Source: Weeksellaceae bacterium TAE3-ERU29 (GTDB lineage: Bacteria > Bacteroidota > Bacteroidia > Flavobacteriales > Weeksellaceae). From it: a stretch of DNA of 61,615 bases. Numbering within the stretch: position 1 is the stretch's first letter; every line of letters begins with the position of its first letter. The position numbers and the translations under genes were made by a program. This document shows, piece after piece, positions 45,386-49,347 of this stretch. The notes below the pieces were generated by a model, which saw nothing but the letters and a program-made list of their open reading frames with translations, searched no databases and had not been told where the DNA came from. The DNA lies in contig JAHUUM010000014.1 in assembly GCA_019218445.1 (NCBI GenBank), positions 1-61,615 on the forward strand, in the 5' to 3' direction.

Positions 45386-48300
45386 ATGAGGAAAGCAATA
45401 ATTGTTAATTTTTTAATTTTATTTTTAATCCCGGTGGTTACTTTTAGTCAGACTTTTGAGAAATCGGGAGATTTATCTACTATTAAAAAAGACGGTAGTT
45501 CGGAGGTTTCAATAAGTCCTAAATATTATAAAGATGGACAAAAGTCTTTATTATGGGAATGGAATCAAAATCAATCTAAAATTATTTTTTCGGATCAGAA
45601 GATAGCAAGTAGTGCAAAAAGGTTTGATAAAAGAGCAGGGATTAAAGTTTGGATTTTTAATGAAAAGAAAAACTCATCCCCTCTTGTATTTAATTTTTTA
45701 GATAAATCGGGAAAAGTACAATACACGTTTGATTTTAATATGAATTTCACAGGTTGGCGTGCTGCTTGGGTTGCGTACTCCGATATGTGGACACCAAACG
45801 GAGGAAAAACTTCTTCTAAAGCAATTGAAAATTTAGAAATTGTTTCTCCTAAAAACACAAAAAACGGAGAAATTTGGATTGATAGATTAGAGTTTTCTGA
45901 TAGTGTAGATAAACAAGCAACTCCGGATGCTCAAATTCCTGAGAATAATAGACACTTAACTCGAGACCAATGGCATTGGGGATTATTATATATTTGGGAG
46001 TTATATAAATATGATATTGCTATTCCTACAAGTATAACAAGTCAACAAAAAGAGGATTTAAAGAAAATAGCGACTAAATTAGATGAGTCTTTCCAAATGG
46101 GGAAACTATCTGCTTCTGATGAGAGCAAGCTTTCGGTGCTTGAGAATAAACTTAGTATAAATTCTGATGGAACTCAGGGTGCTCCTTTAATGCAAAAAGA
46201 TAATATGATAAAGGGAGATGCGGATTATGCGGATCTTAATCAATATTTATATCTAAATGCAAGAAAATGGTTAGGCAATAAAGATAACAAAGGGAAAAAT
46301 GATTTTATAAAAGGAGTCCGTTATATGCTGAATCAAGGCTTTGCTTACGGAAGTGGAATGGGGACAAATCACCATTATGGTTATCAGACAAGAAATATTT
46401 TTTGGTCTATCTATAAAATGAAAGATGTTTTAAAAGCAGTAGGACTGTGGGAAGAGGCTAAAGATGCTGCAACTTATTGGAGTGGGTTGCAAGAAACTCG
46501 TAAACCGTATTCTAAGGAAAGAGATGAAATTACAGATTCTTGGAATACGTTGTTAACCGCTCGTCTTATATGTGCTTTGATGCCGGATTCTGAACAAGAA
46601 CAGTATAGAAATATGGAGGCATTGGCTCGCTGGACTAATGGTTCTGTTTCCTTTACTCCGGGAACACTTGGTGGGATAAAAGTAGACGGGACAGGGTTTC
46701 ACCACGGAGGACATTATCCGGCATATGCAGCTCCGGGCTATGGTGCTATTGGGGAATATCTTAAATTTGTAAATGATACACCTTTCTCATTAAAAGGAGA
46801 GGCTCGAGATGTTTTTAAATTTGCTTTACTTTCATTGGCTCGTCAAACCAATAAAAAAGATTGGGGACTTGGAGTAAGTGGTCGTAATCCTTTTACCGGA
46901 GAAATGGGCTTTAATGTAATAACAGCTTTTGGGTATGCAGCTAAAAGCTACGATTCTACAGATAAAGAATTAGCAGAACAATATTTGAGATTGATACATA
47001 ATAACGATAGAAGATATACCGAAGCTTTACGTTTAGAAAAAGAATTTACGTCTCAAGGATTTACAAGAGGTAGGGCTCCACAGGGTTTTTATGTGTATAA
47101 TCACGCGAATTTAGGAGTTTATAGATATAATGACATAATGATTTCTTTAAAAGGATTTAGTAGAAATTTATGGGGGGCAGAAATTTATTATTCCAGCAAT
47201 AGATTTGGTAGATACCAAAGTTATGGTTCGGCACAAATTATAGGAACTCCGGATAAAAAAGGTAACGTAACAGAAGAAGCCAGCGGTTATAATGAAAATG
47301 GTTGGGATTGGAATAGAAATCCGGGGACAACAACTATTCATTTACCTTTAGAGAATTTAAATTCTCCTTTTGCTATTAGTACGTTAAGACAACCATATAG
47401 CTTTTCAGGAGCAAATGATTTGGATAATGGAAAATACGGAATGTTTGCAACAAAACAGGGAGAGTTTAATTTCCGAAAATTTACTCCGTCGTTTAATGCT
47501 CATAAATCTGTATTTTGTTTTGGAGATAAAATCATCTTTTTAGGAAGTGAAATTAGTAATGATAATAGTGCTAACCCAACAGAAACTACATTATTTCAGC
47601 AGTTTTTAAATTCAGAGAATGAAGAAATAATTGTAAACGGAACAAGTGTAAAGCAATTCCCTTATAGTAAATCAACCGATGAGGTTACTGTTATAAAAGA
47701 TGCAAAAGGATATTATTATTATATTCCTAAAGGGCAAAAACTGGAAATAAGAAAACAAGCTCAGGAATCTGTGGATAACAGAATTACTATAGATAATAGA
47801 ACTGTTAAATATACCAATGGTAATTTTGCAGTTGCTTATTTAGACCATGGAAAGGCACCAAAGAAACAAGCATATGAATACATGATTTTATTGACTCCTC
47901 CAACAGATGCACAAATAGAAAACCTAAAAAATAGAAAAACAGGATATAGAATAAAAAGAAAGGACAATTCTGTACATATTGTAGAAGATGTTTCCAGCAA
48001 TGCTAGAGGTTATGCTGTTTTTGAGGCGTACGATTCTCAGGATGATGATTATATTTTAAAAAGTGATGATGAAATAATGATAATGCTTCTTCCTAAAGAT
48101 GAATCATTAAGTTTTAGTGTTTGTAGTCCGGATTTAAATATAGGAGAACCATCTTATACTACTGCAAATGAAAGTCAGCCTGTACAAAAAAGAATTACTT
48201 TAAAAGGTAAATATAAACTTTCAAAGAGTGATAGCAGAGTAGTTTTAAAATATGATAATGATGGAAATACAATGCTTACAGTAACTTGTAAAGACGGAAT

Positions 48301-49297
48301 TCCTGTGGAATTTAACTTAGTGAAAGTGAGTCCGGAATTTAAAATAAGCCCGACAACTGTAAAAGTAGGAGAATTTATAAATATAGAAGTAAAAGATATT
48401 AAAGGTAAAAAAACTTTAAAACTTTTCGATTCTAAAGGAGCTTTAGCAAAAGAATTTGAAATTAAAGATGGAAGCTCAAAAATCTCTACAGAAGGATTAT
48501 CTGTGGGTGTTTATACTTATAAATTCATATCAGACGAATTAAATAAAGATGGAGAAATTACAATAAAACTTGCTCCGGAACTTAAAGTAAATCCGACAAC
48601 TTTAAGAGTAGGAGAATTTATAAATGTAGAAATAAAAGGAGTTGAAGGTAAAAAGACTTTTAAACTTTTCAATGCTAAAGGAACGTTGGTAAAAGAAGTT
48701 GAGCTTAAAAAAGAAAGTTCAAAAATTTCAACCGAAGGATTATCAGCAGGAGTTTATCGTTATGAGTTTATATCAGATGAGTTAAACGAAAACGGAAAAA
48801 TAACTTTAAATCCGGCTCCGGAAGTTAAAGTAACTAAATCAGGAGAATTTATAAATATAGAAGCAAGAGAAGTTGTAGGTAAAAAAATCTTTAAACTTTT
48901 CAATTCTAACGGTACATTAGTAAAAGAGGAAGAAATTAAAGAGAATGTTTCAAAAATCTCTACTCAAGGACTTCCTTCCGGTGTTTATCGTTATGAATTC
49001 ACAGCAGGTGAATTAAATAAAAGTGGAGAGATTATAATAGAAGTTCAAAACGAAGTAAGAGTTTATCCTACATTATTAAAATCGGGAGAACCTTTAATTT
49101 TAGAAATGAATGGACTTTCAGGAGAAAAGCAATTTATAATTTATGATACTAAAGGAGCTTTAATAAAAGGTGCTAAAATAAAAAGCAATGAAGAAATCAT
49201 ACAATTTCCAACACATGGATTAGTAAAAGGAGTTTATTTTTATCAGTTAAGCACCCCTGATTCCATAAAACAACAAGGTAAGTTTATAATTAAATAA
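45386..49297 (+). CDS. Secreted PL8 chondroitin-ABC-lyase-like enzyme with four tandem T9SS-type sorting domains
   Basis: 1303 residues. Signal peptide (about 1-21), then a Lyase_N-type beta-sandwich (25-175), the helical Lyase_catalyt domain (about 190-560) and beta-sandwich domains to about 980. Landmarks shared with Proteus chondroitinase ABC: FHHGGHYPAY, whose His440 and Tyr447 match catalytic His501/Tyr508; NRFGRYQS (Arg606, 609); TETTLFQQ (Glu733, matching Glu653); GWDWNR and TIHLPLENL. The enzyme should cleave chondroitin/dermatan sulfate by beta-elimination. Residues 986-1065, 1066-1145, 1146-1222 and 1223-1303 are four homologous ~80-residue units with GEFINIE, KLF..KGTLVKE, KISTEGLS.GVYRYEF; the last (GVYFYQLS...GKFIIK) is a typical type A sorting domain. 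Function of the first three copies is unknown. Confidence 0.9.
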   Translation: MRKAIIVNFLILFLIPVVTFSQTFEKSGDLSTIKKDGSSEVSISPKYYKDGQKSLLWEWNQNQSKIIFSDQKIASSAKRFDKRAGIKVWIFNEKKNSSPLVFNFLDKSGKVQYTFDFNMNFTGWRAAWVAYSDMWTPNGGKTSSKAIENLEIVSPKNTKNGEIWIDRLEFSDSVDKQATPDAQIPENNRHLTRDQWHWGLLYIWELYKYDIAIPTSITSQQKEDLKKIATKLDESFQMGKLSASDESKLSVLENKLSINSDGTQGAPLMQKDNMIKGDADYADLNQYLYLNARKWLGNKDNKGKNDFIKGVRYMLNQGFAYGSGMGTNHHYGYQTRNIFWSIYKMKDVLKAVGLWEEAKDAATYWSGLQETRKPYSKERDEITDSWNTLLTARLICALMPDSEQEQYRNMEALARWTNGSVSFTPGTLGGIKVDGTGFHHGGHYPAYAAPGYGAIGEYLKFVNDTPFSLKGEARDVFKFALLSLARQTNKKDWGLGVSGRNPFTGEMGFNVITAFGYAAKSYDSTDKELAEQYLRLIHNNDRRYTEALRLEKEFTSQGFTRGRAPQGFYVYNHANLGVYRYNDIMISLKGFSRNLWGAEIYYSSNRFGRYQSYGSAQIIGTPDKKGNVTEEASGYNENGWDWNRNPGTTTIHLPLENLNSPFAISTLRQPYSFSGANDLDNGKYGMFATKQGEFNFRKFTPSFNAHKSVFCFGDKIIFLGSEISNDNSANPTETTLFQQFLNSENEEIIVNGTSVKQFPYSKSTDEVTVIKDAKGYYYYIPKGQKLEIRKQAQESVDNRITIDNRTVKYTNGNFAVAYLDHGKAPKKQAYEYMILLTPPTDAQIENLKNRKTGYRIKRKDNSVHIVEDVSSNARGYAVFEAYDSQDDDYILKSDDEIMIMLLPKDESLSFSVCSPDLNIGEPSYTTANESQPVQKRITLKGKYKLSKSDSRVVLKYDNDGNTMLTVTCKDGIPVEFNLVKVSPEFKISPTTVKVGEFINIEVKDIKGKKTLKLFDSKGALAKEFEIKDGSSKISTEGLSVGVYTYKFISDELNKDGEITIKLAPELKVNPTTLRVGEFINVEIKGVEGKKTFKLFNAKGTLVKEVELKKESSKISTEGLSAGVYRYEFISDELNENGKITLNPAPEVKVTKSGEFINIEAREVVGKKIFKLFNSNGTLVKEEEIKENVSKISTQGLPSGVYRYEFTAGELNKSGEIIIEVQNEVRVYPTLLKSGEPLILEMNGLSGEKQFIIYDTKGALIKGAKIKSNEEIIQFPTHGLVKGVYFYQLSTPDSIKQQGKFIIK
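48341..49294 (+). repeat. Four tandem copies of a ~240-bp sorting-domain coding unit
   Basis: The units start at about 48341, 48581, 48821 and 49052. Copies 1-3 are close to one another at DNA level (for example GGAGAATTTATAAAT appears in all three), copy 4 is the most divergent. This fits recent duplication of an ancestral C-terminal domain toward the N-terminal side. Confidence 0.8.
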
Positions 49298-49314
49298 ATA
49301 ACATAACCATAACC

Positions 49315-49347
49315 AAAGAAAGCCACTTGAAAAGGTGGCTTTCTTTA
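49315..49347 (+). terminator. Terminator of the PL8 lyase gene
   Basis: AAAGAAAGCCACTT and AGGTGGCTTTCTTT form a long stem with a short GAAA-type loop and a T-rich end, 18 bases past the stop codon. Confidence 0.85.

Follow-up and report, generated by a model that had tools for sequence, protein, structure and literature searches.

Tandem type A sorting domains at the tail of a PL8 lyase in a Weeksellaceae genome

The type A sorting domain of the T9SS normally occurs in one copy at the very end of a protein and is usually cut off, with PorU being the sortase that removes T9SS sorting domains. We analysed a stretch of 61,615 nucleotides from Weeksellaceae bacterium TAE3-ERU29 (hereafter the window), in which a PL8 lyase carries four tail units that all match this family (TIGR04183 / PF18962, Por_Secre_tail), the fourth of which, with motifs B, D and E, ends the protein; the lyase differs from the usual arrangement in that its four copies stand in tandem and three of them are internal, with worn motifs. 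The CTDs of Prevotella intermedia also vary in architecture while retaining motifs B, D and E; they come in a short and a long form, so that what differs is how long the one CTD is, and the available part of that report mentions no tandem or duplicated CTDs (PMC11969387). Fibrillar-adhesin stalks, for example DUF11 arrays, likewise combine tandem Ig-like beads with a sorting domain; according to the accessible portions of two reports, stalk and sorting domain there come from separate families, whereas the PL8 stalk would be the sorting domain itself (PMC12617251, PMC8286594). On the side of the enzyme, the solved structures 1hn0 and 2q1f have all three PL8 domains of the window protein (and 1hn0 the aligned His, Tyr, Arg and Glu), but the chains of 1hn0 (1017 of 1021) and 2q1f (1015 of 1022) end near where window residues 978-981 align, and therefore leave no room for an array. 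Finally, the Vps10/BNR T9SS cargo family (G466, G479, G450, G489, G016, G001-G003, G042, G055) has the same or a related terminal unit and is the probable source of the units; its relatives whose tails were examined have one sorting domain, whereas the member in the window's genome has three. No tandem sorting domains were described in the literature searched, which covered few subscription papers. The explanation that we favour, with a probability of roughly 0.56 and from sequence comparison, is that a tandem-duplicated type A sorting domain has been reused as a stalk, with the last copy acting as the export signal and the tail probably left uncut.

The PL8 lyase, its tail units and a second array

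We found that the Pfam domains of the PL8 ORF follow one another in the order Lyase_N, catalytic domain and Lyase_8 across residues 23-835 (Table 1), and that the closest solved structures are 1hn0 (E = 6.5e-111), 7eip (chondroitin ABC lyase I) and 2q1f (chondroitinase). His440, Tyr447, Arg500 and Glu599 of the ORF align with His501, Tyr508, Arg560 and Glu653 of 1hn0, which we take to be the catalytic residues of chondroitin ABC lyase I, and since all of these are kept the enzyme is predicted to be active, probably as a glycosaminoglycan lyase. The gene is flanked by a fumarase-like ORF and a malate dehydrogenase-like ORF, both on the opposite strand (names by eye), and within the stretches compared with three genomes of the same genus (G001-G003), PL8 alone matched in the gene order. 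The hairpin 3' of the gene carries little weight, with 3 such sites observed in the region scan against 2.1 expected. Elsewhere in the same genome (G000, contig C20; L036 2325-6516), a second PL8 lyase without a sorting domain is followed by an unsaturated glucuronyl hydrolase-like ORF (by eye), a pair that is perhaps a periplasmic glycosaminoglycan locus.

Table 1. Positions of the features in the window and of the second array gene on contig C27 of the same genome
Feature	Position	Strand	Details
Polysaccharide lyase of family PL8 (chondroitinase ABC type), four T9SS sorting-domain units in its tail	45386..49297	+	1303 aa
Sec-type signal peptide, residues 1-21	45386..45448	+	by eye
Lyase_N domain, residues 23-186	45452..45943	+	PF09092, 146.2 bits
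Lyase catalytic domain, residues 217-541	46034..47008	+	PF09093, 236.4 bits
Lyase_8 super-sandwich domain, residues 571-835	47096..47890	+	PF02278, 86.1 bits
Tail unit 1 (sorting domain), internal type, Glu at motif E	48341..48580	+	TIGR04183, 21.0 bits
Tail unit 2 (sorting domain), internal type, Lys at motif E	48581..48820	+	TIGR04183, 23.2 bits
Tail unit 3 (sorting domain), internal type, shorter first strand, Glu at motif E	48821..49051	+	TIGR04183, 26.9 bits
Tail unit 4 (sorting domain), terminal type, complete set of motifs	49052..49294	+	TIGR04183, 36.4 bits
Terminator-like hairpin 3' of the PL8 gene	49314..49347	. (minus in listing)	13 pairs, 5 G-C
Vps10/BNR cargo with three sorting-domain units	C27:496-4044 (L035 493-4044)	minus	1183 aa

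The initial annotation had recognised four tandem T9SS-type sorting domains on a chondroitin-lyase-like enzyme, and its coordinates proved exact, with residues 986-1303 corresponding in frame to positions 48341-49294 and comprising units of 80, 80, 77 and 81 aa. Across the whole protein, TIGR04183 (68.9 bits) and PF18962 (61.0 bits) each match in four separate stretches. When units 1-4 are scored singly, PF18962 gives 21.9, 25.4, 29.2 and 25.1 bits, respectively; unit 1 then reaches neither curated cut-off, and units 2 and 4 miss only that of Pfam, the cut-offs (TIGR04183 = 23, PF18962 = 27) being set for whole proteins and not for single units. The possibility that units 1-3 belong to a different Ig-like family, raised together with the original claim, was examined and rejected, as the T9SS type A sorting domain is the top family for every unit in both Pfam and NCBIfam; the Pfam runners-up are weak (DUF2141 with E = 0.067 for unit 1 and 0.01 for unit 2, CHU_C with 0.036 for unit 3, and none for unit 4). 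The DNA of the PL8 tail has a period of 243 bases according to Tandem Repeats Finder, with 3.0 copies and a score of 739, far above chance. From the membership of the units in the sorting-domain family we infer their fold and their arrangement as beads, and because the linkers of the array are very short, it need not be an extended rod.

Only unit 4 sits at the extreme C-terminus, units 1-3 being internal, and it is distinguished by YP near its start and GKFIIK at its end. The GKFIIK ending had been pointed out before and is borne out, whereas GVY, which had been assigned to the last unit only, is present in all four. At the protein level, units 1-3 share 57-66% identity with each other, and unit 4 shares 32-35% with them. 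We consider it likely that unit 4 is the predicted export signal.

Searching the window's own genome with the PL8 protein retrieved a second gene on contig C27, whose tail matched the array. Its front part consists of a Sortilin-Vps10/BNR region and a weak PKD match and is unrelated to PL8, and its three units comprise two of internal type, 85% identical to each other, and one of terminal type; a sorting-domain array is not confined to one gene of this genome. An assembly artefact, which had been named as a possible source of the PL8 copies, is unlikely because the units differ at 34-68% of residues, the gene lies deep in a 61.6-kb contig and the C27 array is on another contig.

Sorting motifs in internal and terminal units

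Next, we compared the motifs of the array units with those of reference domains. The loci retrieved contained 97 sorting-domain matches, namely 7 array units and 90 others. Of these others, 78, each from a different ORF, finish no more than 5 residues before the C-terminus and were retained, while 12 were discarded; thinning at 70% identity left 59. We observe that the GxY of motif D is universal, with both its Gly and its Tyr present in 59/59 references, in all five internal units and in 7/7 array units. The motif B Gly is found in 58/59 references, whereas only three of the five internal units have it, with Gly in PL8 units 1, 2 and 3 and Asn in C27 units 1 and 2; counting the terminal unit, it is present in 4/4 PL8 units. 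Motif E and the aromatic residue before the first Pro differ as well. A basic residue occupies motif E in 56/59 references but in 1/5 internal units (Fisher p = 0.0003), the residues being Glu, Lys and Glu in PL8 units 1, 2 and 3 and Glu and Gln in C27 units 1 and 2, so that within PL8 it is units 2 and 4 that are basic. The aromatic residue is present in 55/59 references and in 0/4 internal units (Fisher p = 0.0001), with Ser and Asn in PL8 units 1 and 2, Ser in both C27 units and a gap in PL8 unit 3. Since the five internal units share ancestry, these p values are to be read as description and not as probabilities. Both terminal units, those of PL8 and of the C27 protein, carry the residues of motifs B, D and E as well as the aromatic. 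A single sorting domain elsewhere in the window's genome (L019) also has Glu at motif E.

The initial annotation had reserved the full signal form for the last unit, and this agrees with the comparison, in which the internal units are without some of the conserved motif residues and unit 4 is complete. The internal units look like folded but worn signals, with the exception of PL8 unit 2, which, because motifs B, D and E are all kept, could bind PorV. According to the available parts of two reports, motifs B, D and E touch PorV in models (PMC11969387, PMC10202324), and one of them describes Gly at motif B and a basic residue at motif E as absolutely conserved in P. intermedia (PMC11969387). 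Nevertheless, motif loss may count for less than these models suggest, because among 16 point mutants of the RgpB domain no side chain was indispensable, one Tannerella domain is without motif B, and P. gingivalis domains tolerate an extended C-terminus, as stated in the accessible portion of one report, in which a Gly-to-Arg change in motif B of RgpB blocked secretion (PMC11285876). Repeated docking, one of the meanings first proposed for the array, is less well supported, given that 4/5 internal units are without the basic residue of motif E and 2/5 without the motif B Gly. This motif loss lowers the likelihood that every copy docks, although unit 2, with all three of motifs B, D and E, speaks in favour of it.

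Relatives of the array and the origin of the copies

We found that the internal units of the PL8 and C27 proteins share 49-65% identity and their terminal units 61%, whereas internal and terminal units, in both proteins, share 32-43%. A tree built from 29 domains groups the five internal units in a single clade (support 98/97). It is nested in a weaker clade (85/80), whose further members are both terminal units, the sorting domains that the Vps10 relatives have in genus g2 and in G016, and a single additional domain. This fits best with a single origin of the units from a Vps10-family sorting domain, with subsequent spread and further duplication, as far as the sequences can tell; we also infer the direction of the spread between the PL8 and Vps10/BNR cargoes.

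Upon examining substitution rates, Nei-Gojobori dN/dS among the PL8 units was 0.31 (units 1-2), 0.35 (units 2-3) and 1.06 (units 1-3, with a dS of just 0.31), and it was 0.12 for the C27 internal pair and 0.53-0.97 for internal-terminal pairs. Three of the four within-protein internal pairs are constrained, as their ratios of 0.31, 0.35 and 0.12 indicate, while the 1.06 of units 1-3 and the 0.53-0.97 of the internal-terminal pairs speak against the stalk reading. The dS of the internal units, 0.3-0.9, indicates that the duplications are not very recent; of the recent slippage duplication that had been suggested, the tandem copying therefore stands and the recency does not. These rates bear directly on neutral or nearly neutral duplication, in which unequal crossing-over would have copied the end of the gene and only the last copy would count. 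We regard this as unlikely. The head-to-tail copies with their regular period, the 85% identity of the C27 internal pair, the dN/dS of about 1 for PL8 units 1 and 3 and the values of 0.8-0.97 in several internal-terminal pairs are what it would predict, but all units have stayed open with their core residues despite the synonymous divergence, neighbouring internal pairs have ratios of 0.12-0.35, the arrays are maintained in two unrelated genes, and relatives carry other modules in the corresponding slot.

Arrays of this kind appear to be rare. With a one-unit profile, 254 of the 395 genomes searched in the class had matches, and adjacent units within one ORF occurred, among the matches listed, in the window's genome only; a two-unit profile search of 296 genomes of the family matched 218, and among the matches listed in other genomes none ran across two units, all of them starting at or beyond position 55 of 161. 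Both searches scored at most 12-14 candidates per genome and would pass over arrays unlike the present ones. Similarly, adjacent full units were found in none of the 101 retrieved loci outside the PL8 and C27 ORFs, the ORF of L058 having a second, overlapping stretch of 6.9 bits. The copy number is known from one genome of the species. Among the PL8 homologues examined, none has a sorting-domain array, and a sorting-domain match is absent from the C20 and C23 PL8 paralogues of the same genome, from the closest homologues in G001-G003, from the second PL8 proteins of G002 and G003 and from two Bacteroides PL8 homologues. A distant PL8 protein of Prolixibacteraceae (L041 2-2917) has one weak domain after an extra region (TIGR04183 15.1 bits, below the cut-off).

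Two further ORFs were considered as sorting-domain arrays and rejected. In G002 (1088 aa, L136) and G003 (1089 aa, L137), a terminal sorting domain is accompanied by two weak partial matches approximately 1.5 kb upstream (19.4 and 12.9 bits in G002; 19.1 and 13.7 bits in G003), which correspond to longer Ig-like repeats, with the match confined to the GxY strand and one terminal domain in each ORF. The repeats of G003 each score at most 10.6 bits with the sorting-domain profile built here, and the repeats of both ORFs are, we presume, of SprB type in appearance. Because these repeats match around the GxY strand, the GxY core is not exclusive to sorting domains.

When the Vps10/BNR relatives of the C27 protein are compared at the slot that lies between the PKD-like part and the last sorting domain, different occupants emerge. 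In genus g2 and G016 the slot contains a short linker and nothing else; G001-G003 have a linker rich in Pro together with an Fn3-like module (by eye), G042 and G055 carry a discoidin-like module (by eye), and in the member from the window's genome the slot is occupied by the sorting-domain copies. That relatives have this slot either empty or filled with other modules is the best argument that the copies are a spacer or an accessory module, and it supports the suggestion of the initial annotation that the array provides extra length, as a stalk. The discoidin-like module, a common binding fold, also raises the idea that the internal units have turned into carbohydrate- or protein-binding modules, CBM-like, which would help the lyase hold its substrate. 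We consider this very improbable, since neither Pfam nor NCBIfam gives a significant match between the units and a binding family, and one unit type is found on two proteins with unrelated front parts.

Absence of PorU and the fate of the tail

We examined which T9SS parts accompany the arrays. The window's genome contains SprA (2053 bits) and PorV (485 bits, C12:51514-52587), but PorU was represented by neither an NF033707 match nor a C25 peptidase domain. The same two are absent from 4/4 genomes of the genus (G000-G003), three of which are in one or two contigs, and sorting-domain matches are present in 4/4. By comparison, NF033707 is present in 281/296 family genomes (>=90% completeness), the other family genomes without it being 11, spread over five other genera, and the C25 domain was found in 20/31 genomes of the relatives search; in control genomes, a sub-cut-off NF033707 signal appeared in 2/14 and C25 in 0/14. 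The gene order tells the same: in the relative G004 (L131) it is porV-porU-gldJ-murF (gldJ and murF by eye), whereas contig C12 of the window's genome (L128) has porV, a YceI-like ORF, gldJ and murF, with no porU (by eye; tblastn against G004). A natural T9SS without PorU was not described in the literature searched, with few subscription papers covered.

Because the genus is without PorU, the tail may remain on the mature lyase, and our analysis suggests that it probably does unless another peptidase took over. The link between missing PorU and the array is suggestive only, because three relatives of the same genus are also without PorU, yet showed no arrays.

The missing sortase is one ground for reading the tail as a multivalent anchor, in which each sorting domain would hold a PorV-like barrel and the lyase would be retained at the surface by avidity and not by a covalent bond. 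Such an anchor would fit the absence of PorU from all four genomes of the genus, against its presence in most of the family, and from the porV-gldJ site of the window's genome, and it would fit P. gingivalis, where, in the available part of one report, uncut cargo accumulates without PorU and stays PorV-bound at the surface (PMC5562754). The GxY of 7/7 units, the motif B Gly of all four PL8 units and the tolerance of P. gingivalis domains for a C-terminal extension, again from the portion of the report that was accessible (PMC11285876), point in the same direction, and docking by every copy retains some plausibility because of the motifs of unit 2 and the missing PorU. We nonetheless hold such an anchor to be distinctly unlikely, as four of the five internal units are without the basic residue of motif E, both C27 internal units are without the motif B Gly, and the three PorU-less relatives showed no such arrays.

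The stalk reading, which we favour, would proceed as follows. A type A sorting domain would have been duplicated in tandem at the tail of the lyase, and unit 4 would be read by the T9SS, with SprA as the translocon and PorV as the shuttle, resulting in export. Units 1-3 would keep the fold and the GxY core, mostly without the residues thought to contact PorV, and would form a small chain of Ig-like beads, that is, a stalk distancing the lyase from its attachment point at the outer membrane, with which the lyase would reach glycosaminoglycan. The internal units would have arisen once, probably from a Vps10/BNR-type sorting domain, and would now be found on two unrelated cargoes, and with PorU missing in the genus the tail would probably stay uncut. 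A more specific version, which we put forward tentatively and consider somewhat unlikely, is that in this PorU-less genus the last copy both exports the protein and stays bound to PorV as a non-covalent anchor, the other copies having multiplied into the stalk. If this is true, the sorting signal would be an address label and a building block at once, and T9SS surface display would take place without covalent attachment.

Overall, tandem copies of which only the last has all motifs may constitute a natural experiment, separating what a sorting domain needs for folding (the GxY core) from what it needs for recognition (motifs B and E). Furthermore, the occurrence of the array in a PorU-less genus allows one to ask how T9SS cargo is retained or released by a cell unable to cut the tag in the known way.
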